From: Methylotenera sp. RIFCSPLOWO2_02_FULL_45_14 | Lineage (GTDB): Bacteria; Pseudomonadota; Gammaproteobacteria; Burkholderiales; Methylophilaceae | NCBI GenBank assembly: GCA_001803395.1 | Contig: MHBU01000023.1 | Location: forward strand, 1-49,730 | DNA: 49,730 bases | Reading direction: 5' to 3' | In this document: piece by piece, positions 831 to 24,775 of the stretch | Numbering within the stretch: the first letter of the stretch is position 1 | Layout of the letters: every line of letters starts with the position of its first letter | Program-made: the position numbers and the translations under genes | Notes under the pieces: model-generated | What the model saw: the letters and a program-made list of their open reading frames with translations, nothing else | The model's database searches: none | What the model was told of the DNA's origin: nothing

Positions 831-844
831 TTGACCTAGATCAA
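831..844. promoter_or_regulatory. FNR/ANR-like binding site upstream of pqqA
   Basis: TTGACCTAGATCAA matches the FNR/ANR consensus TTGAT-N4-ATCAA with one mismatch. It is followed at 861-866 by taaaat, a possible -10 element, which puts the site near the usual activating distance from a start at about 873-883. The pqqA start codon is about 225 bp downstream. The match is visible in the sequence. Anaerobic activation is inferred from the known behaviour of FNR sites. Confidence 0.55.
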
Positions 845-903
845 GAAAATATTCATGCCATAAAATGGCAGAAAATCATGACATCCTTTTAATTAAATTG
901 CGC

Positions 904-991
904 ATGCAACGACCAGTATTTTAAGCATGTCCCCACCTAGGCCATGCCGTATATTAGCGTTGCATGGTCGTTTCTACTATGCAACGCTAAT
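904..991 (+). promoter_or_regulatory. Structured leader with competing hairpins before pqqA
   Basis: A perfect 13-bp stem is formed by 953-965 (attagcgttgcat) and 979-991 (atgcaacgctaat), with a 13-nt loop. An upstream segment at 904-915 (atgcaacgacca) repeats part of the right arm, so it can pair with the left arm (cgttgcat, 958-965) or with the loop (tggtcgtt, 965-972). The pairings exclude one another, as in an attenuator or riboswitch. A T-rich run (cttttttattt) follows about 10 nt after the stem. No known riboswitch class is recognised. Confidence 0.45.
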
Positions 992-1068
992 CGCGATGGT
1001 GCTTTTTTATTTACGCTTCTCCCATCGCTTGCGGCACCAACTTCAACTAACGTCTTTAGGAGATAAAA

Positions 1069-1143
1069 ATGCAATGGATTGAACCTGATTTTTGTGATCT
1101 ACGTCTTGGCTTTGAAGTAACCGCCTACGTGTACGTGCGCTAG
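1069..1143 (+). CDS. pqqA: PqqA-type precursor peptide (24 aa)
   Basis: This 24-residue peptide begins MQWIEPDF and carries the core DLRLGFEVTAY. Glu16 and Tyr20 have the E-x3-Y spacing that PqqE crosslinks in PQQ precursor peptides. The core closely resembles the Klebsiella-type PqqA. Oddities are a cysteine at position 9 and an additional tyrosine at position 22. A good ribosome site (taggag, 1057-1062) precedes the ATG. The stop at 1143 is followed by a hairpin and then pqqD, the usual arrangement in which pqqA is expressed above the enzymes. The identity rests on the core motif and on pqqD/pqqE directly downstream. Confidence 0.93.
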   Translation: MQWIEPDFCDLRLGFEVTAYVYVR

Positions 1144-1151
1144 GTAATACA

Positions 1152-1174
1152 GGGCGCGGCGTTTTGCCGCGTCC
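1152..1174 (+). terminator. Hairpin between pqqA and pqqD (partial terminator or mRNA stabiliser)
   Basis: A 9-bp G+C-rich stem (gggcgcggc, 1152-1160, with gccgcgtcc, 1166-1174; one G-T pair) encloses a 5-nt loop and is not followed by a strong T-run. Such hairpins after pqqA are typical where the precursor peptide must be made in excess of the modifying enzymes. Confidence 0.55.
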
Positions 1175-1198
1175 ATAATTAAAATAAGGAAGTCTTTT

Positions 1199-1483
1199 AT
1201 GTCTGGAGATTTTCATTTTCAGCCCGAAGATCGCCCGCGACTAGATTCCAAGTATCTGCTTCGTTGGGAGAAATCGCAGGATGCCTACGTGCTGCTCTAC
1301 CCTGAAGGCGTCATCAAACTCAACGCTACTGCCGCGGAAATTCTAAAGCGCTGCACGGGCGAAACTACTGCCGCTAATATCGCTGCCGAACTCAAAGCGC
1401 TGTTTGTCGATAACGCAGATATAGAAAACAGTATTTACAAATTTTTGGAGGTAACCCATGGCAAAGGATGGATCCGCCGTTAG
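1199..1483 (+). CDS. pqqD: PQQ peptide chaperone PqqD
   Basis: The 94-aa product has the usual PqqD size and belongs to the winged-helix RiPP recognition element family that binds PqqA and presents it to PqqE. Recognisable parts are the N-terminal RPRLDSKYLLRWEKSQDAYV strand region and the VIKLNATAAEIL segment that leads into the helices. A ribosome site aagg sits at 1186-1189. The 3' end overlaps the start of pqqE by 26 nt, so the two are translationally coupled, consistent with a 1:1 PqqD-PqqE complex. Confidence 0.93.
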   Translation: MSGDFHFQPEDRPRLDSKYLLRWEKSQDAYVLLYPEGVIKLNATAAEILKRCTGETTAANIAAELKALFVDNADIENSIYKFLEVTHGKGWIRR

Positions 1484-2606
1484 TCTGGACGGGCAAGGCA
1501 AACCGATGTGGCTTGTGCTTGAGCTTACCTACCGTTGCCCGCTCAAGTGTGTCTGGTGCAACAACCCGCTGGATTTCGATCAGTATGGCAAGAAAGAATT
1601 GAGTACCGAGGAATGGAAACGGATACTCCGTGAGGGACGCGAGCTTGGCGCCCTGCAACTCGGATTCTCCGGCGGCGAACCCATGCTGCGCGATGACCTC
1701 GAAGAGTTGGTGGAGGAAGCTGAACGCCTTGGCTATTATACTAATCTGATTACTTCTGGTGTAGGCCTCACGCCGGAACGACTGAAAGCGCTGAAACAGG
1801 CCGGCCTCAAGCAGATTCAGCTGAGCCTGCAGTCTGCAAACCGCAGCCTGACCGACGAACTGGTCGGTGCGCGGGCGCACGACCTGAAAATAGAGGTAGC
1901 GCGCATGATCAAGGCAGAAGGTTTCCCTATGGTACTCAATGTACCGGTATTCCGCCAGAATATTGACCAAGTGGATGAAATCCTGGCGCTGGCTGAAGAC
2001 ATCGGTGTAGATTATCTTGAACTCGCCAACATTCAGTATTACAACTGGGCGCTGCTCAACCGCGATGAACTGCTGCCGACACGCGAGCAGATCGAGCGCG
2101 CAGAAGCTGCCGTCATCGCTGCGCGCCAACGTCCCGGCCAGCAGATGACCATCTATTTCGTCATTCCGGATTATTACGAAACACGCCCTAAGGCATGCAT
2201 GAACGGCTGGGGCACTATTCACCTCACCATTGCGCCGGACGGAGCTGCATTGCCTTGTCAGGAAGTCCGTGTGATCGAGGGCTTGGAATTCCCTACCGTA
2301 CGCGAGCATAGTCTGGACTGGCTGTGGAATGACTCACCGCTGTTCAAAAAATTCCGTGGTGACGAGTGGATGAAGGAGCCTTGCCGCACCTGCGATGAGA
2401 AAGAGAAGGATTTTGGTGGCTGTCGCTGTCAGGCGTTTCTGCTGACCGGCGATGCGACGAATACTGATCCGGCCTGCGCTAAATCGCCACATCACCATGT
2501 GATTGAAATGGCAGTTAACAAAGCGCGCGAGAAGCATCACGTGCCGCGTCCGCTGGTCAGGCGACAGATTGGTGCAGTCACGACTGTATTTATGGAGCAC
2601 AAATGA
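1458..2606 (+). CDS. pqqE: PqqA peptide cyclase PqqE (radical SAM, SPASM)
   Basis: This is a 382-aa radical SAM enzyme that makes the carbon-carbon bond between Glu and Tyr of PqqA, the first committed step. The SAM cluster cysteines are C27, C31 and C34 in ELTYRCPLKCVWCNNP. FSGGEP follows, and the last 110 residues form a SPASM domain with many cysteines (CMNGWG, LPCQE, CRTCDEKEKDFGGCRCQ) for the auxiliary clusters. Spacing and flanking residues follow PqqE closely. One difference from the enterobacterial type is LPCQ where I recall LPCH. The ATG at 1458 follows ggaggt at 1447-1452. The stop overlaps the next start in ATGA. Confidence 0.95.
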   Translation: MAKDGSAVSLDGQGKPMWLVLELTYRCPLKCVWCNNPLDFDQYGKKELSTEEWKRILREGRELGALQLGFSGGEPMLRDDLEELVEEAERLGYYTNLITSGVGLTPERLKALKQAGLKQIQLSLQSANRSLTDELVGARAHDLKIEVARMIKAEGFPMVLNVPVFRQNIDQVDEILALAEDIGVDYLELANIQYYNWALLNRDELLPTREQIERAEAAVIAARQRPGQQMTIYFVIPDYYETRPKACMNGWGTIHLTIAPDGAALPCQEVRVIEGLEFPTVREHSLDWLWNDSPLFKKFRGDEWMKEPCRTCDEKEKDFGGCRCQAFLLTGDATNTDPACAKSPHHHVIEMAVNKAREKHHVPRPLVRRQIGAVTTVFMEHK

Positions 2607-2704
2607 AAACGCCTTTCGATACTGCCACTGGCACTATCGCGCTCGGCATGTTACTCACGCTAGTGTTGTTTCTAATCGCCCGTTGGCTGGTGTTGGGAGG
2701 GTAA
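2603..2704 (+). CDS. 33-aa single-span membrane peptide
   Basis: The ATG overlaps the pqqE stop codon (ATGA), and the frame ends at TAA 2702-2704. The product begins MKTPFDTATG and has one hydrophobic helix (about residues 12-32: TIALGMLLTLVLFLIARWLV) ending in Leu-Gly-Gly. It matches no family I know. The coupled start and its position between pqqE and a polytopic membrane protein argue that it is real. It resembles the tiny subunits of respiratory membrane complexes in size and shape, which suggests an accessory to the next gene product. That role is inference. Confidence 0.6.
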   Translation: MKTPFDTATGTIALGMLLTLVLFLIARWLVLGG

Positions 2705-2710
2705 TGCACG

Positions 2711-3214
2711 ATGGATCAGATTATCGACTTCTTACTGCGCTGGGTACATTTTTTCGGCGGTATCATCTGGGTGGGACATAACTATGCCAGCATGATACAA
2801 CGTCCGGCTTTTCGGCCGCCCAGCCGTGAGGATTTGGGCGACGAGCAAAGCCCAGTCTACATGACGCTGCTGGGACGTGAACACGGAACTTTTCGTTATG
2901 CCGCGATCGTCACTTGGCTGACCGGAGTCGGCATGCTGTGGCAGCGCGGCGTGCTGCTTGATGCGGTGTCGCTGAACGGCTATCAGGCCGTTATCGGTAT
3001 CGGCTTCTGGATAGGCACACTGATGCTGGCTAATCTCTGGCTGGTATTGTGGCCAAACCAGAAGAAGGTACTCGGTTTCGCTCCTGCGCCACTGGAAGAG
3101 CGCGTGCGTTGTGCCCGCATCACCTTCCTCTCCTCACGCACCAATACCATGCTCTCCATTCCATTGCTGTTCTTCATGGCTGCCAGCCAGCATGGGACTG
3201 CCCTGTTTGTCTGA
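2711..3214 (+). CDS. PuuD/urate-oxidase-N-like membrane protein, short form
   Basis: This 167-aa protein has about four hydrophobic segments (near residues 4-25, 62-78, 90-112 and 145-160). The opening LLRWVHFFGGIIWVGHNY, the later WPNQKK and the end NTMLSIPLLFFMAASQH match the membrane domain of PuuD-type cytochrome urate oxidases (the Urate_ox_N family). Conserved histidines in the first helix could be haem ligands. It is much shorter than PuuD and lacks the C-terminal cytochrome c domain. No purine genes are nearby, so urate oxidation is unlikely. The context suggests a membrane electron-transfer or anchoring role for the PqqDE pathway. The family call is fairly firm; the role is a guess. 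Confidence 0.7.
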   Translation: MDQIIDFLLRWVHFFGGIIWVGHNYASMIQRPAFRPPSREDLGDEQSPVYMTLLGREHGTFRYAAIVTWLTGVGMLWQRGVLLDAVSLNGYQAVIGIGFWIGTLMLANLWLVLWPNQKKVLGFAPAPLEERVRCARITFLSSRTNTMLSIPLLFFMAASQHGTALFV

Positions 3215-4295
3215 GGTTTTCAATTTTGCTGCCGGCCCTGGCGTCATGCCAGCCGCCGTGCTGGCACAAGCGCAGCAGGAGTTTTTAAACTGGAACGGCA
3301 GCGGCCTCTCGATGCTGGAAACACCGTTTACCGGTGAGGCGTTCAAGGCGGTGCTGCGGCAGGCGCGCGACGACCTGCGGGCACTACTGAATATCCCGGA
3401 CAATTATCATATTCTATTTATGCATGGCGGCGCTTCGGCGCAGTTCTCGCTGGTGCCGCTCAATCTGCTCGGCGGGGTCGACCGGGCCGACTATGTAGAA
3501 ACTGGCTACTGGTCACGCAAGAACATGCGCGAAGCCAGCCGTTACTGTAACGTCAATATCGCCGCCAGCAGCAGCGTCACCAACTTTGACCGTATGCCGG
3601 AAGCCTGGCGGCTTGATCCAGACGCCGCCTATTGCCACATCACCAGTAACGAGACCGCCAACGGCGTACAGTTCTACGATATTCCCGCTAGCGGTGACTT
3701 GCCGCTGGTGGCGGACATGACCTCGGACTTTCTCAGCCGGCCTCTTGATGTGCAGCGCTACGGCTTGATTTACGCCGGTGCACAGAAGAATATCGGCCCG
3801 GCTGGACTTACCATCGTCATCGTGCGTGACGACCTGCTCGGGCGCGCCCATCCCGCAACTCCGGCGGTATTCAATTATCAGACGCAGGTTGAGGCAGACT
3901 CCATGCTCAACACGCCACTTACCTACGCCGTCTATCTGACCGGACTAGTATTCCGCTGGATTGCCGAGACGGGCGGCGTCACAGTGATGGCACGCAACAG
4001 TGAGCAGCGCAGCGCACGTCTGTATCACGCCATTGATAACAGCGATGGATTTTATCATTGTTCGGTGCAACCAGCGTACCGGTCACGCATGAATGTCTGC
4101 TTCACGCTCACTCACGACGCGCTTACGCCGTTGTTTCTGAGCGCCGCTGCCGCAGAAGGTCTGCTCAACCTGAAGGGGCACCCCATGGCGGGCGGCGTCC
4201 GTGCCAGCCTCTACAATGCCATGCCAGAAACGGGTGTGGCGGCACTGGTCAACTTCATGCAGCATTTCACAGAGGAGCATCGTCACCATGTATAG
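3192..4295 (+). CDS. SerC-like class V aminotransferase with altered substrate site
   Basis: The 367-aa product has the overall PSAT sequence: VFNFAAGPGVMP, YVETGYWSRKN, the PLP lysine in YAGAQKNIGPAG near residue 200, and GGVRASLYNAMP near the end. Residues that hold the phosphate of phosphoserine differ. The Ser-His-Arg of E. coli SerC is Pro-Phe-Thr (residues 45-47), and Gly-His-Arg near the C-terminus is Gly-His-Pro. The PLP site seems intact, so it should be an active PLP enzyme on another substrate. The ATG at 3192 overlaps the previous gene by 23 nt; a TTG at 3207 (MSEVFNF) is an alternative that matches SerC length better. It overlaps the next gene by 8 nt. It is probably part of the PqqA-modifying pathway. 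Confidence 0.85.
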   Translation: MGLPCLSEVFNFAAGPGVMPAAVLAQAQQEFLNWNGSGLSMLETPFTGEAFKAVLRQARDDLRALLNIPDNYHILFMHGGASAQFSLVPLNLLGGVDRADYVETGYWSRKNMREASRYCNVNIAASSSVTNFDRMPEAWRLDPDAAYCHITSNETANGVQFYDIPASGDLPLVADMTSDFLSRPLDVQRYGLIYAGAQKNIGPAGLTIVIVRDDLLGRAHPATPAVFNYQTQVEADSMLNTPLTYAVYLTGLVFRWIAETGGVTVMARNSEQRSARLYHAIDNSDGFYHCSVQPAYRSRMNVCFTLTHDALTPLFLSAAAAEGLLNLKGHPMAGGVRASLYNAMPETGVAALVNFMQHFTEEHRHHV

Positions 4296-5184
4296 CTGGT
4301 TATCGGCTACCGTATCCAGACGGGGTGTGCCGCATGCCCGCAAGCTGGCCGCGTATGCCATCAGGCTGGCTGCCATCGCCGTCCCGGCAGCGTTGCCGCA
4401 AAACCTGCAACACCAGGTTATGGGATTATCGTTCCCGGGGCCGCTCGGGTTGGCTGCCGGATTCGACAAGCACGGCACGCTTTATCACGCTTTGCCATCG
4501 CTGGGGTTCGGTTTCGCCGAGATCGGTTCGGTCATTCCGTTGGCCGAGGAACAGCGCAGCCTGGGGCTGAATGCTGTTATCGCCATCCTGTCCCGATATC
4601 CCAGGCCTCATGCGATTCCGCTTGGTATGAGTATCAGCATGAACCGGGCAACGCCGCCCGCGCAAATGGCCGACGATTATCTGGTCTGCATGGAAAAGCT
4701 CTGGAAATACGCCGACTACATCACACTCAATCTCGGTGTGCGCGCTGGTCCAGATCTGCATCTGCCGGAGCATCGTGCCACGCTGTACAGCGTGCTGGCA
4801 GCGACCAAGAGTAAGCAGGTACGCATGATGACTGAAAGTGGACGAGGTTGTCCTATCGTTGTGAAAATAGATCAAGATCGTGGAGATACGAACAATCTAC
4901 TGGCTTGCGTTCGTGACTATGCTTTTGATGGGTTAATTCTGAGCGGTGGTGCGCACATAAATGAAGGGAAAATGATGCTTGCCAATTTGCAACACGTGTC
5001 AAACAAGATGAGCGACACTATGCCGATTATCTCAGTGGGTGGCATCCGCACCCCACAGGATGTTGCTGACCGGTTATCTGCTGGCGCTTCGCTGGTGCAG
5101 ATTTACAGCGGCATCGTCGAGTCAGGGCCACTACTGCCGAGGCGCATCAATACACACCTGTCGACTTTAGCTACCGCTTGCTGA
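4288..5184 (+). CDS. PyrD-like flavoprotein (class 2 DHODH paralogue) lacking catalytic residues
   Basis: The 298-aa product resembles quinone-dependent dihydroorotate dehydrogenase. It has an N-terminal helical extension (1-45), GLAAGFDKHG (54-63), LGFGFAEIGSV, DDYLVCMEKLWKYADYITLN and the C-terminal FMN phosphate site (SVGGIRTP, GASLVQIYSG). The orotate pocket is not kept. The NxSSPNTPGL loop carrying the catalytic serine is NLGVRAGPDL (148-157), so Ser becomes Val151 and Asn becomes Ala153. The MGFNN loop is gone, and the NTT segment reads SGG. It probably still binds FMN and may reduce quinone, with a different substrate. The ATG at 4288 follows agaggag and overlaps the SerC-like stop. 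Base composition turns A+T-richer after about 4830. Confidence 0.85.
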   Translation: MYSWLSATVSRRGVPHARKLAAYAIRLAAIAVPAALPQNLQHQVMGLSFPGPLGLAAGFDKHGTLYHALPSLGFGFAEIGSVIPLAEEQRSLGLNAVIAILSRYPRPHAIPLGMSISMNRATPPAQMADDYLVCMEKLWKYADYITLNLGVRAGPDLHLPEHRATLYSVLAATKSKQVRMMTESGRGCPIVVKIDQDRGDTNNLLACVRDYAFDGLILSGGAHINEGKMMLANLQHVSNKMSDTMPIISVGGIRTPQDVADRLSAGASLVQIYSGIVESGPLLPRRINTHLSTLATAC

Positions 5185-5395: not shown

Positions 5396-5899
5396 TCAAC
5401 GGGATTTAATAACATCCAAACTCCAACCGGTGTGCTGAAAATACTTACCATAATTGTGTAATGTCTGCAGCACACCTAAAGCTCCAACTCGCTGCGCTTG
5501 AACGTTCTGTGATGTTCGCATAAACTCCACACCCCCCATTAAATCGACTAATACAACAGCATGAAAAGCCTTATCTGCATTCTGTGAGAGTCTGCATTTT
5601 TTTACAATTTCAGCAACGTTCTTATCGATCACATTCGCAATTCGTTGATAGTCCTGAGTACTAAGACGCCCTTTAATTATGTCATCTTGGCTAGCAGAAA
5701 CCGCTTGACGGATATTATCCATACCTAGCCGCACCACCTCATCTGTTTCCCATTTTTCACCTGGTTTAAGTGTGTGTTCAGTGGCTTGCCCGCTTGGCTT
5801 GTGGGCATGTTCATCCGCGTAAACTAGCATTGTAGTAAATATCAATCCTATTGCGCCTAATGCTTTAAGGCCTCTCAATCGAAATGCTGCAATCATCAT
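5396..5899 (-). CDS. Exported protein of unknown function
   Basis: The 167-aa product starts with a signal peptide (about residues 1-28, GLKALGAIGLIFTTMLVYADEH). The mature part has GEKWETDEVVRLGMDNIRQA, a central helix with KKCRLSQNAD, and ends LHNYGKYFQHTGWSLD. I recall the GxKWxTDxxxRxGM...CxL...NYGxxFxHPGW pattern from small periplasmic proteins of Burkholderiales and relatives, some labelled DnrO, but I cannot give a biochemical function. It has one cysteine and several histidines. It stands alone, convergent with the pqq-type operon and 112 bp downstream of ubiD on the same strand. Start codons at 5899 and 5896 are both possible. Confidence 0.75.
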   Translation of the reverse strand: MMIAAFRLRGLKALGAIGLIFTTMLVYADEHAHKPSGQATEHTLKPGEKWETDEVVRLGMDNIRQAVSASQDDIIKGRLSTQDYQRIANVIDKNVAEIVKKCRLSQNADKAFHAVVLVDLMGGVEFMRTSQNVQAQRVGALGVLQTLHNYGKYFQHTGWSLDVIKSR

Positions 5900-6011: not shown

Positions 6012-7505
6012 TCAAAATCCCAGCGTTTGCCAAATCTCATCGACTTTGATTTTCACTTCAGCGGGCATCACAATAGGCCGACCCCATTCACGGTTTGTTT
6101 CGCCAGGCCATTTATTGGTCGCATCCATGCCCATTTTACTGCCAAGGCCGCTGACTGGAGACGCAAAATCTAGATAGTCAATCGGAGTGTTATCTACCAA
6201 CAAGGTATCACGTACCGGGTCAACCCGGGTAGTGATAGCCCAGATCACTTCCTGCCAGTTGCGGATATTGACATCTTGGTCCACCACCACGATGAACTTG
6301 GTGTACATGAATTGACGTAAAAAACTCCAGATGCCGAACATAACGCGCTTGGCGTGACCCGGGTAAGATTTTTTCATCTGCACCACCGCCATGCGATAGC
6401 TACAACCCTCAGGTGGAAGATAAAAATCGGTGATTTCCGGAAACTGCTTTTGCAGCAACGGGATGAATAATTCGTTGAGGGCCAGCCCCAAAATCGCCGG
6501 CTCGTCGGGTGGTTTGCCGGTATAGGTAGAGTGGTAAATCGGATCACGCCGCATCGTGATGCGATCAATAGTGAAAACCGGGAACCAGTCCTGCTCGTTG
6601 TAATAACCGGTGTGGTCACCGAACGGCCCCTCCAGCGCATGCTCATAGCCTGTGGCGTGTGACTCGTCCGGGTAGATATGCCCTTCCAGCACGATCTCGG
6701 CCGAAGCGGGGATGCGCAAGTTGCTGCCGATGGCTTTAACTAGTTCGGTGCGGCTACCGCGCAGCAGGCCAGCGAATTGATATTCCGACAGGCTATCGGG
6801 TACCGGCGTAACGGCGCCTAAGATAGTGGCAGGGTCTGCTCCCAAGGCGACCGCCACCGGATAGGGCTGGCCTTGATGGAGCGCACAGTGTTCACGAAAA
6901 TCCAGTGCGCCACCGCGTTGAGCCAACCAACGCATGATGACTTTGTTGCGACCCAGCACTTGCTGGCGGTAGACCCCTAAATTCTGGCGCTCCTTATGCG
7001 GTCCTTTTGTGATCACCAGTCCCCAGGTGATCAAGGGTGCGATATCGCCTGGCCAGCAATGCTGAATTGGCAGTCGAGCCAAGTCAGCATCATTGCCTTC
7101 CCACACGATGTCCTGGCATGGTGCTGAGCGTAACTCCTTGGGTGTCATGTTCCATAATGATTTCACCTGTGAGCGCAGTCCCAGCATATCCTTGAATCCC
7201 TTGGGTGGCTCGGGGTCCTTCAGCATAGCCAGCACATGGCCGTAGTTCCGTAGCTCGCTCACGTCCGTAGCACCCATGCCGAGTGCGACGCGCCGGGGAG
7301 TGCCAAAAAGATTGCCAAGCACCGGGATGCTATGGCCCACGGGGTTTTCGAACATCAGTGCCGGACCACCAGAGCGCAGGGTACGGTCGCACAGTTCAGT
7401 CATCTCCAGATGCGGGGAGACGGGGGACGTTATACGCTTTAACTCGCCCAGCTTTTCCAGCTGGGCCATGAAGTCTCGCAAATCGCGGTAGGCCAAGTCA
7501 GCCAC
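6012..7505 (-). CDS. ubiD: 4-hydroxy-3-polyprenylbenzoate decarboxylase UbiD
   Basis: UbiD decarboxylates the polyprenylated ring in ubiquinone synthesis using the prenylated FMN made by UbiX. The sequence opens with [20 protein letters not shown] and contains [30 protein letters not shown] and [20 protein letters not shown], all standard for the family. A GTG at 7505 gives 497 aa, the same as the E. coli enzyme, and overlaps ubiX by 8 nt. An ATG at 7541 would add 12 residues with no UbiD counterpart, so I prefer the GTG. It is the last gene of the operon that starts at yhcC. Confidence 0.95.
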
Positions 7506-8106
7506 CCGCCAGATCGGTATAACCTGCTGCCGGAAGTCCATCCCAGCGTGGCGCCAGCGTGTTCGGTATATCCAATAAATCGATGACGCGGCTGACGGTG
7601 TGATCGATCATGTCGGCAATGGTTTGTGGGCGGTGATAGAAACATGGCAGCGGCGGGTAAATAATGCCGCCCATTTCGGTGACGCTGGTCATGTTGCGCA
7701 AATGGGCCAGATTGAGCGGTGTTTCGCGCGCCATCAGGATCAGGCGGCGGCGCTCCTTGAGCATGACATCGGCGGCACGCGTAATCAGGTTATCTGCTAG
7801 GCCATGTGCCACCGCGGCCAATGTCCTCATCGAACACGGGGTAACGACCATGCCGTATGACTGAAATGAGCCGCTGGCAATTGCTGCGCCGACATCGTGC
7901 ACATGGTATGCGACATCGGCCAGTGCTTCGAGCTGTATGCGGTTCATGTCCAGTTCCTGCTGCAAATTCAACAGCCCGGAATCAGATACCACCAGATGCG
8001 TTTCGATATTCGGTATTTCGCGCAGCACTTGCAGCAGACGCACGCCGTACGAAGCGCCAGTGGCGCCGGTGATGGCGATGATCAGTCGTTTAGGAGCGGC
8101 AATCAT
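7498..8106 (-). CDS. ubiX: Flavin prenyltransferase UbiX
   Basis: The 202-aa product transfers a dimethylallyl group to FMN to make the cofactor of UbiD. It shows the flavodoxin-like start [19 protein letters not shown], the segment [24 protein letters not shown] that binds flavin and prenyl phosphate, and the C-terminal [20 protein letters not shown]. Length and motifs are normal. Its start overlaps the stop of the DGC-domain gene (ATGA) and its end overlaps ubiD, so enzyme and cofactor maker are co-translated. Confidence 0.96.
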
Positions 8107-8507
8107 GAGGGTAGGGAACGATATCCCTCTTCAATTCTGGCAAGCACACGTGCCATAACAGTTTGCGCCTGGACGGGGTCAAAATCAGTGTGGTAGCTTT
8201 TTTTCACACCATACCGGTTGAGCTGATGGTAGCTGTCCGGCTCAATGCCGTGGCGTGCCAGGCAAGCCTTGGTGCAAGCGAGCGGACAACCATCGAGCGC
8301 GACAATGAGCCGGCCAGAGCGCGCGGTTTTCAGCAGATGAGGGACATCGCCGCCGACACCTGCGATACAGGACATTTCTGCCACTCCCAGTTTGTCTAGC
8401 TGTAGCGCGATGTAGTTTGCCATTTGCGCCACGTTTGAACAGCCGGAACAGGAGTACACAATAGGCAGATTCGCATTTTTTTTACTCATAGGAGAAGCTA
8501 CTTTCAT
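8103..8507 (-). CDS. DGC-domain putative zinc-binding protein
   Basis: The 134-aa protein has the cysteine pairs YSCSGCSNVAQMAN near the start and ALDGCPLACTKACL in the middle, the Asp-Gly-Cys motif that names the DGC family. The cysteines could bind zinc or an Fe-S cluster. No function is established that I know of. Family members often occur near anaerobic or nitrogen-oxide metabolism genes. Here it lies inside the ubiquinone operon, overlapping ubiX by 4 nt and 35 bp after ubiT. This suggests service to UbiU/UbiV Fe-S clusters or redox sensing, which is inference. ATG at 8507 or 8489. Confidence 0.8.
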   Translation of the reverse strand: MKVASPMSKKNANLPIVYSCSGCSNVAQMANYIALQLDKLGVAEMSCIAGVGGDVPHLLKTARSGRLIVALDGCPLACTKACLARHGIEPDSYHQLNRYGVKKSYHTDFDPVQAQTVMARVLARIEEGYRSLPS

Positions 8508-8542
8508 TCAAGTAAGTTCAAAAATAAAGCCCTCAATCGCCA

Positions 8543-9013
8543 TCACACCCATAACCTTGCCTTCATTCGCGCTAGCAAATGTCTGGGAAATATTCGTTCA
8601 AGCTCCAGCATAGGATGCTCAATAGCATCTAACGTGTTCTTAGCCACCAACCCCAGCTCTGTATCTCCCTCCACCACTAGTCGTCGATTGAAAAACAACG
8701 TGTCCGGGTCTTCCCTGCGCATCGCCAGCAGATAAAAATCATACGCGCTGGCGCTAATGGCAAGATCAGCTTCCACATTGCCGGCGGCGGCCGAAAAACC
8801 AGTGGGCAGCACGGTGAAATGCAGGTGCAGCCCGGCATCAGTGACATGAATGCTAATACGCTTGCCATATAGGGCCTGCAGGTCGCGGCGGCGGATAACC
8901 TGGCGTAGCGCCAGATTGAGAATACGGGTAAAGGCGAAGGATGGCGGCCATGCCGGCAGGTGTTCGATCAGCTGACCCAGCGGGCGTGGAAAAGTAAATG
9001 CAGGTTGGCTCAC
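8543..9013 (-). CDS. ubiT: Anaerobic ubiquinone accessory factor UbiT (SCP2 domain)
   Basis: The 156-aa protein has a C-terminal SCP2/sterol-carrier fold: LQALYGKRISIHVTDAGLHL, then ISASAYDFYLLAMRREDPDT, LFFNRRLVVEGDTELGLVAK and NTLDAIEHP. UbiT is the lipid-binding factor of the O2-independent ubiquinone pathway and replaces UbiJ. It starts at a GTG whose GTGA overlaps the ubiV stop. The order UbiU-UbiV-UbiT is the canonical trio, which makes the call firm. Confidence 0.93.
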   Translation of the reverse strand: MSQPAFTFPRPLGQLIEHLPAWPPSFAFTRILNLALRQVIRRRDLQALYGKRISIHVTDAGLHLHFTVLPTGFSAAAGNVEADLAISASAYDFYLLAMRREDPDTLFFNRRLVVEGDTELGLVAKNTLDAIEHPMLELERIFPRHLLARMKARLWV

Positions 9014-9906
9014 GTCAGCATCTCCTTCGATTGTTCAATACCAGATCGTCCATGCCAGTAGCCGTCACAGGGTGCATCAAACAGATAGGGTGCAAGCTCA
9101 ACACTCGCTTCGGTGGCACTCATTGCTCCGTCAATTGCAGCCCGAAACATCGATACCACTTCGCCAGTATGCGTGGATTGAGGACTAATGCGGACAATAT
9201 CCACGCCAAGCTGCCGCATATCGTTTATTTCACCGATCAGGTTGTGGATGCTGGCGGATTGGGTCTGCGTACCGTTTAGCGCCAGAAAAGGCTGCCCCTC
9301 GCGCGTTTTGAGCGTCATGCCGCACGGATGCTGCAGACACATAAAATGGCAATCATCCTTGGGTAGGTTGTATCGCCGCGCGGTGAAGCAGCGCGAAGAA
9401 AAAGCCAGCGGCAAGCGACCATAAACGAACACCTCGGTTTCCATGTCTTGAGGTTTTTTCGCCAACAGTTCAGCCAGCATATGGCGCGACAATTCCACCG
9501 GCATCACCCAGCGCGTTGCGCCCTGTTCTGCCAGTACCTCCAGAGTCTCGCCGTTGTAGGTATTGATATGCGGTCCGATAACAAAAGATTGACCTGTCGC
9601 CAGACGCACCGCACCCATATCGTTGGCTTCGATGGCGAACAGACCGTTGCCGGCGAGTCGGCGCAGCATCTTGAGGTCGGACTCGGATTCGATCAACGCC
9701 TGCGTGGACAACACCACTTCTTTGCCGGCAACCGCCAGCTTACTGGCCACGTCCAGCCAGTCGTCGAAGCGCATCTCGTGGCGGCGCGAGCACACAACTT
9801 CGCCCAAATAGACGATATCCACCGGCCAGCCTGCGACCTGATCGTAGAAGTCGCGTACGCTATCGCGAGTCCAGTAGTAAAGAATGGGGCCTAGAGAAAT
9901 TTTCAT
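9010..9906 (-). CDS. ubiV: O2-independent ubiquinone hydroxylase subunit UbiV (U32 family)
   Basis: The 298-aa U32-family protein works with UbiU as a [4Fe-4S] heterodimer that hydroxylates ubiquinone precursors without oxygen. The likely cluster cysteines are visible: one in GEVVCSRRHEMRFDDW near residue 39, then SRCFTARRYN and DDCHFMCLQHPCGM near residues 175-195. It ends just upstream of ubiT, and the ubiU stop is 4 bp before its start. It was once annotated as a peptidase, but no protease residues are evident. Confidence 0.95.
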   Translation of the reverse strand: MKISLGPILYYWTRDSVRDFYDQVAGWPVDIVYLGEVVCSRRHEMRFDDWLDVASKLAVAGKEVVLSTQALIESESDLKMLRRLAGNGLFAIEANDMGAVRLATGQSFVIGPHINTYNGETLEVLAEQGATRWVMPVELSRHMLAELLAKKPQDMETEVFVYGRLPLAFSSRCFTARRYNLPKDDCHFMCLQHPCGMTLKTREGQPFLALNGTQTQSASIHNLIGEINDMRQLGVDIVRISPQSTHTGEVVSMFRAAIDGAMSATEASVELAPYLFDAPCDGYWHGRSGIEQSKEMLT

Positions 9907-9910
9907 AGTG

Positions 9911-10912
9911 TCATTTCCATGGTCGGTAATAGGCGCCCAGCGTATGCTGCTGCCCCTCGGAGAGCTTGCCTAGCTGCGCCATCCAGTCTGGGGTGACAGC
10001 ATAGTACGCTGCGTCGCGCTTGGCCGCATCGATAGCGGCGCGCCATACACGCGTCACCTGTTCGACATAAATCGGACTACGCTGGCGGCCTTCGATCTTG
10101 ATGGCACTGATACCCATGCGTAACATGTCCGGGATCAGTGCCAGCGTGTTAAGGCTGGTCGGTTCCTCCAGCGCGTAGTAGGTTTCGTCCTCAACCTCGA
10201 AGCGACCTTTGCACAGCGTAGGATAGCCGGCGTTCTCGTCGGCGCCGTAACGGTCCAGCAGCACACCGTTCAGGCGCGATTCCAACCCTTTGGGGGTCTG
10301 CTGCCAGCGCACCGCTTTGGCCGGAGAGCATACCCCAGCGGTATTGGGCGATTCGCCGGTAGCGTAGGAAGACAGTATGCAACGCCCCTCCACCATCACG
10401 CACAAGCCGCCGAAGCCGAACAGCTCGATTTCCACCGGCGTATGTTTGACCACATTTTCCACCTGCGCCAGCGACAGCACACGCGGCAACACTGCGCGCT
10501 GAATGCCGAAATGCTCATGGTAGAAATTGATCGCCTCATAATTAGTCGCCGATCCCTGCACTGAAAGATGCAAACGCAGATTGGGATAGGTGCGGCTGGC
10601 GTAGCGCATCAGGCCGAGATCCGCCAGGATCAGCGCATCAACACCCAGTTCTACCGCATCGTCTACTGCCTGCCGCCAAATGTGCCATTGTGCAGTTTGC
10701 GGAAAGGTGTTGAGCGCCAGCAATACTTTGCACCCGCGCTCACGGGCGTAGCGGATGCCTTGTTTGGCGGTTTCGCTATCGAAATTCAATCCGGCGAAGG
10801 CGCGTGCGTTGGTACTGTTGCGAAAGCCGAAATAAACGCAGTCGGCGCCGTTATCCACGGCGGCCTTGAGCGCGGGCAGGTTGCCGGCCGGACAGACCAG
10901 TTCAAGCGACAT
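9911..10912 (-). CDS. ubiU: O2-independent ubiquinone hydroxylase subunit UbiU (U32 family)
   Basis: The 333-aa partner of UbiV begins MSLELVCPAGNLPALKAAVD, aligned with the E. coli start. GGLCVMVEGRCILSSYATGE and GVCSPAKAVRW carry cluster cysteines, and KIEGRQRSPIYVEQVTRVWR closes the family signature. I chose the ATG at 10912 because gaggag lies 7 nt upstream and the length matches E. coli (331 aa). An in-frame start at 10948 would add an unrelated N-terminus. It overlaps the yhcC stop by 11 nt. Confidence 0.95.
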   Translation of the reverse strand: MSLELVCPAGNLPALKAAVDNGADCVYFGFRNSTNARAFAGLNFDSETAKQGIRYARERGCKVLLALNTFPQTAQWHIWRQAVDDAVELGVDALILADLGLMRYASRTYPNLRLHLSVQGSATNYEAINFYHEHFGIQRAVLPRVLSLAQVENVVKHTPVEIELFGFGGLCVMVEGRCILSSYATGESPNTAGVCSPAKAVRWQQTPKGLESRLNGVLLDRYGADENAGYPTLCKGRFEVEDETYYALEEPTSLNTLALIPDMLRMGISAIKIEGRQRSPIYVEQVTRVWRAAIDAAKRDAAYYAVTPDWMAQLGKLSEGQQHTLGAYYRPWK

Positions 10913-11855
10913 GTTGCAGCTCCTCGATGATATGGGTTTCGCTGGCACGGCTACCTTGGCGGGTGCCGCGTTGACGCAGCTCCTGCTCGATGCCGTTCAG
11001 CACATTCCACTTCTGCGAGCACCATACAGGTGCCAGCAAAATATCTTTCGATGCCGTGGCAGTGACACGGTGAAATACGATATGTTGCGGCGTGCGTTCG
11101 ATCAGGTCGGCGGCGATGCGGATGTAGTCGGCCTGCGTAAGCGGCTGATAGCCACCGCGCCGCCACTGGTAGGCCAGCATGGTGTGCTTGACTACATGCA
11201 GTGGGTGCAACTTGAGGCCATCAACGCCAATATCAAGTACGGTGTCGAGCGTGGCGTGATAGTGGTACTCATCCTCGCCTGGTAAGCCAATGATCAGATG
11301 GGTGCATAACGGAATGCCGCGCGCGCGCGCTGCTAGTGCAGTATCGCGGGACTCGGCGAGGGTGTGGCCGCGGGTGACGCGCTCCAGTGTGGCGTCGAAT
11401 GCCGATTGCAGGCCGAGCTCCAGCCATACTTCCAGACCCTCGCTGCGCAGGATGTCGAGCAGGTCGAGCACAGCCGACGAAACGCAGTCCGGGCGGGTGC
11501 CAACTGCGATGCCGATCACGTCCGGTTGCGCTAGTGCCTCACGGTAAAGGGCTTCGAGCTCGGCGATGTCGGCGTAGGTGTTGGTATAGGCCTGAAAATA
11601 AGCAATGAAATGACGGGCACGCGTGCGTTTAGCAATCGCGGCTCTAGCCTTGGTGATCTGCCCCGGTACATTGAGACGGGAGCCGGCAGCCGGGCTGAAA
11701 GAAACATTGTTGCAGAACGTACAGCCGCCAGTGCCTTTGGTGCCGTCGCGATTGGGGCAGGTAAAACCGGCGTCGAGCGCGATTTTGTGCACGCGCATAC
11801 CGTAGCGTTTCAGCAGATCCTGCCCATAAGTATTTACCCTGTTAGACAGAATCAT
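10902..11855 (-). CDS. yhcC: Radical SAM protein YhcC (TIGR01212 family)
   Basis: The 317-aa product has the family layout RYGMRVHKIALDAGFTCPNR, the SAM cluster motif in GGCTFCNN, FIAYFQAYTNTYADI, GTRPDCV, WLELGLQSAFD and GLKLHPLHVVKHT. The substrate is unknown. In E. coli it is needed under some anaerobic conditions, and its gene is found near ubiUV in several proteobacteria. Here it is the promoter-proximal gene of the ubiU-V-T-DGC-ubiX-ubiD operon, with an FNR-like site about 320 bp upstream of its ATG. Confidence 0.9.
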   Translation of the reverse strand: MILSNRVNTYGQDLLKRYGMRVHKIALDAGFTCPNRDGTKGTGGCTFCNNVSFSPAAGSRLNVPGQITKARAAIAKRTRARHFIAYFQAYTNTYADIAELEALYREALAQPDVIGIAVGTRPDCVSSAVLDLLDILRSEGLEVWLELGLQSAFDATLERVTRGHTLAESRDTALAARARGIPLCTHLIIGLPGEDEYHYHATLDTVLDIGVDGLKLHPLHVVKHTMLAYQWRRGGYQPLTQADYIRIAADLIERTPQHIVFHRVTATASKDILLAPVWCSQKWNVLNGIEQELRQRGTRQGSRASETHIIEELQHVA

Positions 11856-19442: not shown

Positions 19443-20510
19443 ATGAAGTTAAAGCACCTAATAATTACCCTGGCAGTCGGCCTCACGTTTAGCATCAATG
19501 CTAACGCCGCTGATCGTGGTAAAGCCTATGTTTCAAATCAAGATGGTGGCGTTTCAATCATCGACATTAATACCTTATCAACCATTGGTAATATCGATGT
19601 TAAAGGCGAAGGCCCGCGCGGATTAGCAGTCACCGATGATGGAAAACTGCTCGTTGTGGCAACGCGTGAAAACGGCAGCGTTTCCATTATTGATACCGCT
19701 ACCAATGAAGTCATCAAACAAATTCCAGTTGGGAAAAACCCGGAATTTGTAAGAGTGCGTGGTAATTTTGCTTTTGTGTCTTATGAGCCAAGTGCAAAAG
19801 GTGGCCCACCGCCAGTGCCAGGTTCTGCTGCGGCAAAAGAAGCAGAAAAAGCCGCAAAGGACGATGATGAAGAGCCGGCACGCATTGGTATTATTGATTT
19901 GAATCTAGGTAAAAAGGTGCGTGAAATTATTGGCGGCCCTGAAACTGAAGGCATTGAATTTAGTGCCGATGGCAAACAGCTTGTGATTACAAATGAAGCG
20001 GACAACACGGTAACTGTTCATAATCTAAAAACTGGCAAACTCATTAAAACCATCAAAACCCACAAATATGGCGATCGCCCACGTGGCGTTAAAGTTTCTC
20101 CCGATGGCAAAACCTATGTAGTCACATTAGAGTACGGCAACAAATTTTTAGTGCTCAATAAAAACTTCAAAGTATTACGTACCGTTGACACTGGCGCCAC
20201 GCCTTATGGCATAGCCTATGACCGCAAAGGTGAGCGCATTTTTGTAGCGGCTAACAAAGCCAAAACATTAGAAGTGTTTGATGCCAAAACCTATGCAAAA
20301 ATTAAAGAAGTAGCTACAGGCAACCGTTGCTGGCACTTTAGCTTTACCCCCGATGACAAAGAAATTTTACTGGCTTGCGGTAAATCAGATGCGATATACG
20401 TGATTGATGCAGAAAAACTAGAAGTCACTCAGCAAATTGAAAATAAGAAAATGCCTTGGGGTGTCGTGACTTATCCTAAATCAGCCGGAAGTTTAGATAA
20501 GCCGTTGTAA
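19443..20510 (+). CDS. Periplasmic YVTN beta-propeller protein
   Basis: The 355-aa product has a signal peptide (1-22, ending INANAAD) and repeated blades of the YVTN/YncE type: AYVSNQDGGVSIIDINTL, VSIIDTATNEVIKQIPVGKN, VTNEADNTVTVHNL, IFVAANKAKTLEVFDAKT, AIYVIDAEKLEV. A loop of about 40 residues rich in Pro, Ala, Lys and Asp/Glu (residues 115-145) interrupts the third blade. It resembles the PQQ-catabolism-associated beta-propeller group (TIGR03866), common in bacteria with periplasmic quinoprotein dehydrogenases. Function is not established. ctggag is the ribosome site. A terminator follows. Confidence 0.82.
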   Translation: MKLKHLIITLAVGLTFSINANAADRGKAYVSNQDGGVSIIDINTLSTIGNIDVKGEGPRGLAVTDDGKLLVVATRENGSVSIIDTATNEVIKQIPVGKNPEFVRVRGNFAFVSYEPSAKGGPPPVPGSAAAKEAEKAAKDDDEEPARIGIIDLNLGKKVREIIGGPETEGIEFSADGKQLVITNEADNTVTVHNLKTGKLIKTIKTHKYGDRPRGVKVSPDGKTYVVTLEYGNKFLVLNKNFKVLRTVDTGATPYGIAYDRKGERIFVAANKAKTLEVFDAKTYAKIKEVATGNRCWHFSFTPDDKEILLACGKSDAIYVIDAEKLEVTQQIENKKMPWGVVTYPKSAGSLDKPL

Positions 20511-22349: not shown

Positions 22350-22447
22350 GCTGTCACTATAATTGAAAAAATTGATTATAGTCAATAGTTAACGTGGATT
22401 TTTCAAAGTATTACAATACATTACAAAATTAGTTCGTATAAAAATAG

Positions 22448-22876: not shown

Positions 22877-24775
22877 ATGAAAAAATCCACCATTGCCAGC
22901 TTAATCAGCTTGGCATTTACCTCACCTGTTTTTGCGGCTGAAAATATCAATTTAGAAGATGTAGTCGTTACTGCTAGCCGTACTCAACAAGCGCGCACCA
23001 GCGTGGTGGGTGATGTTACAGTGATTGATCGTGAAGAAATCGAACGCGCAGGCGCGGGCTCCATCACCGACCTGTTGCGTGCGCAACCAGGGGTGCAAAT
23101 TAACGCTAACGGCGGTGCAGGCACAGGCAGTAGCGTATATTTGCGCGGCACCAATGCTGACCATGTGGTGGTGTTAGTCGATGGCTTACGCATCAACTCT
23201 GCCACGCTAGGCACAACTTCTTTTGAAAACATTCCACTCGCGCAAATTGAAAGAATTGAAATTCTGCGCGGCCCAGCCTCTAGCCTTTATGGCGCAGATG
23301 CGATTGGCGGCGTGATTCAAATTCTTACACGCAAAGCTGAGGCTGGCAAACCGCTTATTCATGCCGCAGTTGGGCTAGGCAGTTACGACACTAAGACCGC
23401 AGAAGCGGGCATCAACGGTAGCGTTAATGCACTTAAATATGGCATCAATGTAAGCAGTTTTGATACCGACAGCTTTTCTGCCAAACGCATACGCACGGGC
23501 AAAGATGCAGACGATGACAGTTATCGCAATTTAAGTTCCTCAGCTTTTTTAGAACTAGCATTAGTCCAAGGTCATACTTGGGGATTGCAATTTTTTGAAA
23601 GCAAAGGACACGCCGAGTTTGACAACAATTATGAAAATTTTGGTGAGCAGACCCTACAAAGCTATGCTTTTACCAGCAAAAACCAGTTTACTGATATTTG
23701 GCACAGCACTTTCAAACTAGGCATGGGCGTGGATGACTCTGAAAGTCACGCCAAGCCAAACCTAACCAAGACAAGCGCTAGCTATAACCCGAAAGGTATT
23801 AGCCAATACCGCACAGAGCAACAACAACTGACGTGGCAAAATGATTTTAACTTGCCATTAGGCACACTCACTTTAGCTTATGACCGACTAGAGCAAGACG
23901 TGAATGGCCAAAGCAACGTCAAAACTAAATTCAAAAAAGAACGTAAGAACGATAGCTTTTTAGCTGGCTATGTCGTAGACATTGGCAATCATGCTTTACA
24001 ACTCTCATTGCGCGAAGACCATAATACACAATTCGGCAGTTACACCACAGGCGGCGCTGGCTATGGTTATCGCTTTACACCTGAGTGGCGCGTCACTACA
24101 AGTTATGGCAAAGCTTTCAAGGCGCCTACCTTTAACCAACTGTATTTTCCAAACTTTGGCGACCCGGGCTTAAGCCCAGAAAAGTCAGACAACGTCGAAG
24201 CCAGTGTTAAATATACCGGGCAACAATGGAATGCGGGGCTAACGGTTTTTGAAAATAAAATAAGAAACTTAATCGCATCAGTTGGCCCTGCCACTAGCGG
24301 ATGTACATTCGCTGGTTTTTGCCCTGTCAATATTGGTAAAGCCAAAATACAAGGAGCAACCATTGATGGCAGCTGGAATATCACTGACTCACTTTTATTG
24401 AGCGGTAATTTGACTATACAGTCTCCCCGTGAGAAGGAAACCGACAATCTAGCTCCGCGCCGTGGCAATCGTTATGGCACAGTTAATCTATTACACACTT
24501 GGGGAGATTTGCAATGGGGTGCTGAAGTCACGGGGGCATCTACTCGTTACAATGACCTCGCCAATCAATTTAAGATGAGCGGCTATGCCTTAGTGAATTT
24601 GACCGCAAATTATCGTATGACGCCAGAATGGAAACTGGAAATGCGTGCTAACAATGTGTTGGATAAGAACTATGTGCTTAGCACCACCAAAAGTAGCTTT
24701 TCTCCAAACGGCCCTGACTACAACACCGCTGGCGGTAATATATTTGTAGGTTTACGTTATGACATGAAGCATTGA
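22877..24775 (+). CDS. btuB: TonB-dependent cobalamin receptor BtuB
   Basis: This is a 632-aa outer-membrane B12 receptor. Signal peptide 1-20 ends PVFAAEN, followed by TonB box EDVVVTASR. The plug has LLRAQPGVQINANGGAGTGS and EILRGPASSLYGADAIGGVI. The barrel carries FKAPTFNQLYFPNFGDPGLS, typical of BtuB, and ends GLRYDMKH. The riboswitch upstream confirms the substrate. A hairpin (ggcgagt...actcgcc, 24793-24810) follows the stop. Confidence 0.95.
   Translation: MKKSTIASLISLAFTSPVFAAENINLEDVVVTASRTQQARTSVVGDVTVIDREEIERAGAGSITDLLRAQPGVQINANGGAGTGSSVYLRGTNADHVVVLVDGLRINSATLGTTSFENIPLAQIERIEILRGPASSLYGADAIGGVIQILTRKAEAGKPLIHAAVGLGSYDTKTAEAGINGSVNALKYGINVSSFDTDSFSAKRIRTGKDADDDSYRNLSSSAFLELALVQGHTWGLQFFESKGHAEFDNNYENFGEQTLQSYAFTSKNQFTDIWHSTFKLGMGVDDSESHAKPNLTKTSASYNPKGISQYRTEQQQLTWQNDFNLPLGTLTLAYDRLEQDVNGQSNVKTKFKKERKNDSFLAGYVVDIGNHALQLSLREDHNTQFGSYTTGGAGYGYRFTPEWRVTTSYGKAFKAPTFNQLYFPNFGDPGLSPEKSDNVEASVKYTGQQWNAGLTVFENKIRNLIASVGPATSGCTFAGFCPVNIGKAKIQGATIDGSWNITDSLLLSGNLTIQSPREKETDNLAPRRGNRYGTVNLLHTWGDLQWGAEVTGASTRYNDLANQFKMSGYALVNLTANYRMTPEWKLEMRANNVLDKNYVLSTTKSSFSPNGPDYNTAGGNIFVGLRYDMKH

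Follow-up and report, generated by a model that had tools for sequence, protein, structure and literature searches.

A 49,730-nucleotide (nt) stretch of Methylotenera sp. RIFCSPLOWO2_02_FULL_45_14 (contig C23, hereafter the window) carries a seven-gene operon in which a second set of pqqA, pqqD and pqqE (pqqADE2) is joined to genes for a 33-amino-acid (aa) membrane peptide, a PuuD-like membrane protein, a SerC-like protein (SerC2) and a PyrD-like protein (PyrD2). PqqE and PqqD are known to join Glu and Tyr of PqqA on the way to pyrroloquinoline quinone (PQQ), and the later steps, as far as known, depend on O2 (PMC12423496 section 2.9; PMC11102522). We propose, with a probability of roughly 0.63 and on the strength of sequence comparisons, that this operon forms a horizontally mobile module under FNR control, which would make PQQ itself without O2, beside the aerobic pqqABCDE route, during nitrate respiration. 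The genome bearing the window comprises 2.13 Mb in 35 contigs and is 98% complete. The elements of the operon, all on the (+) strand, are as follows (bit scores are given against the cut-off of the model).

831–844 (+): FNR/ANR-type box TTGACCTAGATCAA, starting 238 nt upstream of pqqA2
845–1068 (+): leader between the FNR box and pqqA2, ~220 nt
1069–1143 (+): pqqA2, 24-aa precursor (TIGR02107, 33 bits versus 20)
1199–1483 (+): pqqD2, peptide chaperone (TIGR03859, 86 bits versus 46)
1458–2606 (+): pqqE2, by family a radical S-adenosylmethionine (SAM)/SPASM enzyme that crosslinks Glu and Tyr (TIGR02109, 508 bits versus 381)
2603–2704 (+): gene for the 33-aa single-helix membrane peptide, matching no family
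2711–3214 (+): gene for the PuuD-like membrane protein, 167 aa (Pfam Urate_ox_N, 49 bits versus 27)
3207–4295 (+): serC2, pyridoxal phosphate (PLP) aminotransferase lacking the phosphate site for phosphoserine; the TTG start is an assumption
4288–5184 (+): pyrD2, dihydroorotate dehydrogenase (DHODH)-like protein without the orotate-binding segments

All of these genes and the FNR-like box had been named in a sequence-only reading of the window, and each lies where that reading placed it. The spacing between pqqA2 and pqqD2 is 55 nt, and the junctions from pqqD2 on consist of overlaps of 26, 4, 8 and 8 nt and a single 6-nt gap. PqqA2, PqqD2 and PqqE2 all score above the PQQ-specific equivalog cut-offs, although PqqD2 falls below that of another model (NF002535, 91 versus 101). 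PqqA2 contains Glu16 and Tyr20 as E-x3-Y, which is retained in 12 of 12 members, and its end, LGFEVTAYVYVR, is identical in all 12 members having that part; this end is invariant although the PyrD2 of locus L048 is only 29% identical to that of the window. In a tree of PqqE2 and PqqE1 (the canonical copy), in which the two rows from genome G348 form long branches and one of them is partial, a branch with 100/98 support separates 10 sequences of one kind from 10 of the other.

We found that the cluster recurs beyond the window. A PyrD2 profile built from three proteins detected it in 9 of 187 Methylophilaceae genomes (3 of 24 genera), and the total stands at 13 instances: these nine genomes, a metagenome-assembled genome titled Gammaproteobacteria bacterium (L010), a genome from another order (G348, locus L048), and two plasmids of alphaproteobacteria, namely pHY1 of Methylovirgula sp. 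HY1 and a plasmid of Acidibrevibacterium fodinaquatile that is typed as mobilizable. L009 and G146 are one record and were counted once, and G110 and G121 are near-identical across the cluster. The order pqqA-D-E-[peptide]-puuD-serC-pyrD is seen in 12 of the 13 instances; in the remaining one (G131), the contig stops within the PuuD-like gene. Conservation of the linkage in other genomes had been proposed as a check on the sequence-only reading, and the same order in 13 instances establishes that the association of pqqADE2 with its partners is beyond chance. Among 72,556 plasmid records, only the two plasmids named above match the PuuD-like protein. Outside the family, we ran the PyrD2 profile at E 1e-60 over 369 class and 399 order genomes and recovered the window's genome alone. 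That cut-off proved too stringent, as G348, a genome of the class sample, carries the cluster and was recovered only by the PuuD-like profile, so carrier counts outside the family are lower bounds. At 1e-20, the PuuD-like profile matched 67 of 398 phylum genomes besides two carriers, most of the open frames being ~200 aa long, and no pqq genes lay within ~6 kb in the 5 of these 67 genomes that were inspected. By eye, transposition- or integration-like open reading frames (ORFs) follow the cluster in L010 (5648–6727), consistent with mobility.

The sequence-only reading had presented the operon as lacking pqqB and pqqC. This stands for the operon itself, as family searches found neither PqqB nor PqqC among its proteins, and fails for the genome, where contig C11 encodes a full canonical pqqA1-B-C-D-E set behind serC1 and two ORFs (pheA- and hisC-like by eye). 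A genome without pqqB and pqqC is therefore ruled out, and so is a view of SerC2 and PyrD2 as the genome's sole housekeeping copies, placed in the operon, because a further serC (serC1, whose product is 53% identical to SerC2) lies on C11 and a further pyrD on C7. Complete pqqABCDE is retained in all nine family carriers, and in L048 canonical pqq genes stand alongside the cluster, with pqqE1 extending past the end of the fetched stretch; this co-occurrence was examined in the nine family carriers and L048. PqqC is present in 171 of 187 family genomes, and three members of the window's genus (G144, G146 and G148) have two PqqC matches apiece. The operon is thus a second, dedicated set that adds to the aerobic route and does not replace it.

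Next to the retained crosslinking machinery, the two enzymes with housekeeping relatives have lost substrate-binding residues. SerC2 lies above the SerC family cut-offs (TIGR01364, 460 bits versus 443.6; NF003764, 487.5 versus 253), so the score alone would give it the SerC name, and both the lysine motif QKN (13 of 13 members) and the Arg of GGxR are retained. However, the positions equivalent to His41-Arg42 and Arg329 of E. coli SerC, which we take to be the phosphoserine phosphate-binding residues, are Phe-Thr/Ser/Gly and Pro/Ala/Ser/Val, respectively, in 13 of 13 SerC2 proteins, whereas they are retained in SerC1. PyrD2 falls short of the cut-offs of all DHODH models listed, including TIGR01036 (152 bits versus 200) and NF003652 (176.5 versus 267). 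In the window's PyrD2, the NRxGFNN segment and the TNTT loop are missing and NLGVRAGP replaces NISSPNT; the three motifs so lost or replaced presumably bind orotate in class-2 DHODH. NLSSP and NLSGP are found in the proteins of the two plasmids. All 13 PyrD2 proteins retain VGG[IV], a motif of the flavin mononucleotide (FMN)-phosphate site. Judged by these residues, PyrD2 appears to be no dihydroorotate dehydrogenase, and both SerC2 and PyrD2 appear to have given up their housekeeping functions. Only 10 of 13 PyrD2 proteins retain the N-terminal part of class-2 DHODH, and its loss in the other three argues against a conserved quinone site, which weakens the earlier idea of a quinone-linked flavoprotein.

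The PuuD-like protein covers part of the Urate_ox_N domain, and a low-confidence model gives it four helices. Models built on alignments of three sequences were of poor quality (mean predicted local distance difference test scores of 63.5 and 58.3), and a three-sequence profile of the protein found no match among solved structures. It departs from the PuuD layout of an eight-helix domain plus a cytochrome c domain, as the CXXCH cytochrome c motif occurs in 0 of 12 PuuD-like proteins, and the histidines matching its His13, His23, His58 and His161 are retained in 12 of 12. Short, four-helix forms are noted by Doniselli et al. 2015 (PMC4562309). The gene for the 33-aa peptide was found in 11 of 12 members. 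Single-chain Urate_ox_N relatives of ~200 aa have an additional N-terminal helix that resembles this peptide: against a profile of that helix, built from 12 of 18 loci, the window peptide scored 6.7 bits, a value attained by 24 of 2,000 shuffles, with member peptides scoring 2.5 to 14.6 bits and other helices at most 4.7 bits. These scores are only suggestive, and the peptide and the PuuD-like protein may correspond to such a single-chain relative divided between two genes.

The upstream DNA was examined for signs of control. Perfect TTGAYNNNNRTCAA boxes occur twice in the 49,730 bases versus 0.24 expected, and 4 of 100 shuffles reach two. Across the nine Methylophilaceae-type members scored (family members and L010 with upstream DNA), TTGAY-N4-RTCAA is matched at 10/10 positions in eight, at −223 to −242 from pqqA2, and dinucleotide shuffles of the same 55-nt slot give 10/10 in 0 to 2 of 1,000 cases. 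The Acidibrevibacterium plasmid has a 10/10 box at −108, pHY1 a 9/10 box at −97 behind a Crp/Fnr gene, and L048 a 9/10 box at −169. Upstream of canonical pqqA, a 10/10 box was found in none of 10 regions and a 9/10 box in two. An Rfam search of the leader gave a single match, far below the gathering score, and the leader contains an inverted repeat, GCGTTGCAT/ATGCAACGC (957–965/979–987), that is not retained in distant members. The other perfect box in the window, TTGATTATAGTCAA (22372–22385), lies ~490 nt upstream of a 632-aa ORF (at 22877) that by eye looks like an outer-membrane receptor.

The company kept by the cluster points to anoxic respiration. Outside the operon, the window contains the following genes:

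6012–10948 (−): ubiD, ubiX, ubiT, ubiV and ubiU, O2-independent ubiquinone genes, all five above NCBIfam cut-offs

UbiV was detected in 13 of 187 family genomes, namely in 9 of 9 carriers versus 4 of 178 non-carriers (hypergeometric 1e-12 over genomes, related genomes being non-independent); at the genus level, it occurs in 3 of 3 carrier genera and in 5 of 24 genera overall (hypergeometric 0.005). The distance between ubiV and pyrD2 is 1.2 to 6.9 kb in all nine family carriers, in more than one arrangement. NarG exceeds its cut-off in all 10 carriers searched versus 6 of 20 hand-picked non-carriers. Of these 20, the four with UbiV contribute three NarG-positive genomes, as do the 16 UbiV-negative ones, which are mostly complete genomes of the genus. 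In addition, narGHJI is located on pHY1, the same plasmid as the Methylovirgula cluster; nitrogen-oxide respiration of the carriers is judged here from genes alone. A PQQ alcohol-dehydrogenase family match at E 1e-60 is present in 10 of 10 carriers, 8 of them above the cut-off. In L048, the cluster lies back to back with the canonical pqq genes, between them and a directly adjoining PQQ alcohol dehydrogenase. The anaerobic chemistry suggested by the sequence-only reading thus gains circumstantial support from the conserved linkage, the FNR-like box, the company of ubiV and nitrate reductase and the lost active-site residues; its other half, replacement of the aerobic steps, gives way to an addition to the aerobic route.

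In the pathway that we envisage, PqqD2 would present PqqA2 to PqqE2, which, by family membership, would crosslink Glu16 and Tyr20, and a protease encoded outside the operon would liberate the crosslinked Glu-Tyr pair. By analogy with PuuD, the PuuD-like protein and its 33-aa helper might then oxidise the tyrosine ring in the membrane, replacing PqqB, with the respiratory chain accepting the electrons and water supplying the oxygen atoms. SerC2 could perform PLP chemistry on an amino-acid arm of the intermediate, and PyrD2 a flavin-based dehydrogenation of the rings in place of PqqC. The PQQ would then be used by the carriers' quinoprotein alcohol dehydrogenases. That the product would be PQQ rather than a relative is suggested by the retained E-x3-Y, by the PQQ alcohol-dehydrogenase matches in all 10 carriers and by the arrangement in L048. 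As to the protease, the Acidibrevibacterium plasmid has an M48 metalloprotease gene after the cluster (L063, 11411–12589), a candidate for cutting PqqA.

Several observations weigh against this proposal. The transaminase has no explained place in a pathway that retains both nitrogens, as the known PQQ route does. The window operon contains no protease gene, and the 33-aa peptide was not found in pHY1. The PyrD2 proteins of L048 and both plasmids (3 of 13) are shorter and lack both the N-terminal part and the GFDK Lys; since PyrD2 is fast-evolving and shortened in these three, a common redox role is uncertain. L020 has a degenerate FNR box (8/10 positions), a score attained by 92 of 1,000 shuffles. 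Three genus members have NarG without ubiV or the cluster. A qNorB query matched 14 of 187 genomes, only 2 of 9 carriers among them, and gave no match in the window's genome. The cluster is therefore associated with nitrate respiration rather than with full denitrification, and a correlation with NO reductase, as judged by this qNorB query, was rejected. Finally, the carriers are akin to one another, and their counts are non-independent.

The unplaced transaminase also lends itself to a different account, in which the same crosslinked Glu-Tyr yields another redox cofactor or metabolite, e.g., a PQQ analogue with an amino group converted to an oxo group by SerC2 and used only in anoxia. SerC2 retains its PLP motif in every member while having lost the phosphate site, with Phe for His41, and PqqA2 and PqqA1 are each well conserved yet differ outside the E-x3-Y region, as might be expected of such a product. 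However, no new quinoprotein or dedicated user gene accompanies the cluster in the loci read, and the L048 cluster sits next to an ordinary PQQ alcohol dehydrogenase, so we regard this account as unlikely. A bolder version is more doubtful: a second natural PqqA-derived quinone, a relative of PQQ with its nitrogen pattern altered by the SerC-like transaminase, which would be made entirely without O2 via a split PuuD-type membrane dehydrogenase and water oxygen, for quinoproteins working only during nitrate respiration. If true, this would add a new redox cofactor, disseminated in part by plasmids.

Retention of pqqB and pqqC in all nine family carriers would also suit an operon that merely raises PqqA, PqqD and PqqE at low oxygen, with canonical PqqB and PqqC finishing the synthesis on trace O2 and the other four genes unrelated. 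We consider this improbable, given that the puuD-like gene, serC2 and pyrD2 accompany pqqADE2 in 12 of 12 instances uncut by a contig end and that the FNR-like box and the ubiV company indicate true anoxia. It is very improbable that the product is a modified peptide or a signal with no connection to redox cofactors: a PqqA-like peptide with a radical SAM enzyme is indeed the layout of ribosomally synthesised and post-translationally modified peptides, and pHY1 has another such system beside the cluster, a cbpA/cbpB modified-peptide radical SAM pair (L062, 3980–5559), but the window's cluster has no exporter gene and its three Pqq proteins exceed PQQ-specific equivalog cut-offs.

Three other ORFs of the window were noted. 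A secreted-looking 167-aa ORF (5396–5899, −) is convergent with pyrD2, and by eye a similar 173-aa ORF is found 3′ of the cluster in L021 and L022. A 134-aa ORF with SCSGCSN (8103–8507, −) lies between ubiX and ubiT, and ORFs resembling it by eye occur near the cluster in L025, L026 and L027; neither of these two window ORFs matched an NCBIfam family at 1e-10. A beta-propeller protein (19443–20510) has below-cut-off matches to TIGR03866 (PQQ-catabolism-associated) and to lactonase-type NosZ.

Methylophilaceae are a family known for methylotrophy, and some methylotrophs respire nitrogen oxides on methanol despite the O2 need of PQQ synthesis. Because that synthesis is held to need O2, PQQ-dependent methanol dehydrogenases would be of little help under strictly anoxic conditions, according to PMC11102522. 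If our preferred reading of an O2-independent PQQ module is true, the seven genes would settle how methylotrophs keep PQQ enzymes during nitrate respiration, would add a radical-SAM-derived cofactor route free of O2, and would open anaerobic hosts to PQQ production. A short, testable gene list is available from the window, including a small peptide that the published description does not mention.

That description is by Li et al. 2025 (PMC12423496 section 2.9), who report pqqAED-puuD-serC-pyrD clusters in Hyphomicrobium, Halomonas, Stutzerimonas, Methylophaga and Azoarcus and suggest, as speculation, O2-independent PQQ synthesis. Neither the cluster type nor the idea of making PQQ without O2 is therefore new. 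Among the matches listed from the open-access literature, we found no product measurement, experimental follow-up or other mention besides PMC12423496. As in the window-type cluster, the same six genes stand beside a full canonical pqqABCDE in denitrifiers, a match of gene sets made by description; in H. denitrificans (Hden_0548–0553), O2-independent ubiquinone genes are also not far off. The window-type cluster differs in its FNR-like box, sHdrR/SoxR control being reported for the clusters of Li et al., and section 2.9 leaves unmentioned the 33-aa peptide, the active-site losses and the family-wide linkage to ubiV. What we add are the Methylophilaceae-type, metagenome-assembled, other-order and plasmid members, the conserved FNR box, the active-site losses, the 33-aa peptide and the association with ubiV and narG.

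In comparison with the canonical pqqABCDE set on C11, the operon shares PqqA with E-x3-Y, PqqD and PqqE and differs in having no PqqB or PqqC, four other genes, an FNR-like box and a PqqE group of its own. With PuuD, the cytochrome c urate oxidase, its membrane protein has the Urate_ox_N/DUF989 core in common, but it amounts to half of the membrane domain, without the cytochrome c motif and with one helix possibly encoded separately. SerC2 and PyrD2 resemble SerC and class-2 PyrD at the family level, including the PLP-lysine and FMN-phosphate motifs, and depart from them in the lost substrate-binding residues. The closest parallel in logic would be UbiUVT, the system for O2-independent ubiquinone hydroxylation: its proteins and chemistry are unrelated, but here too an anaerobic set would be kept beside an aerobic one.

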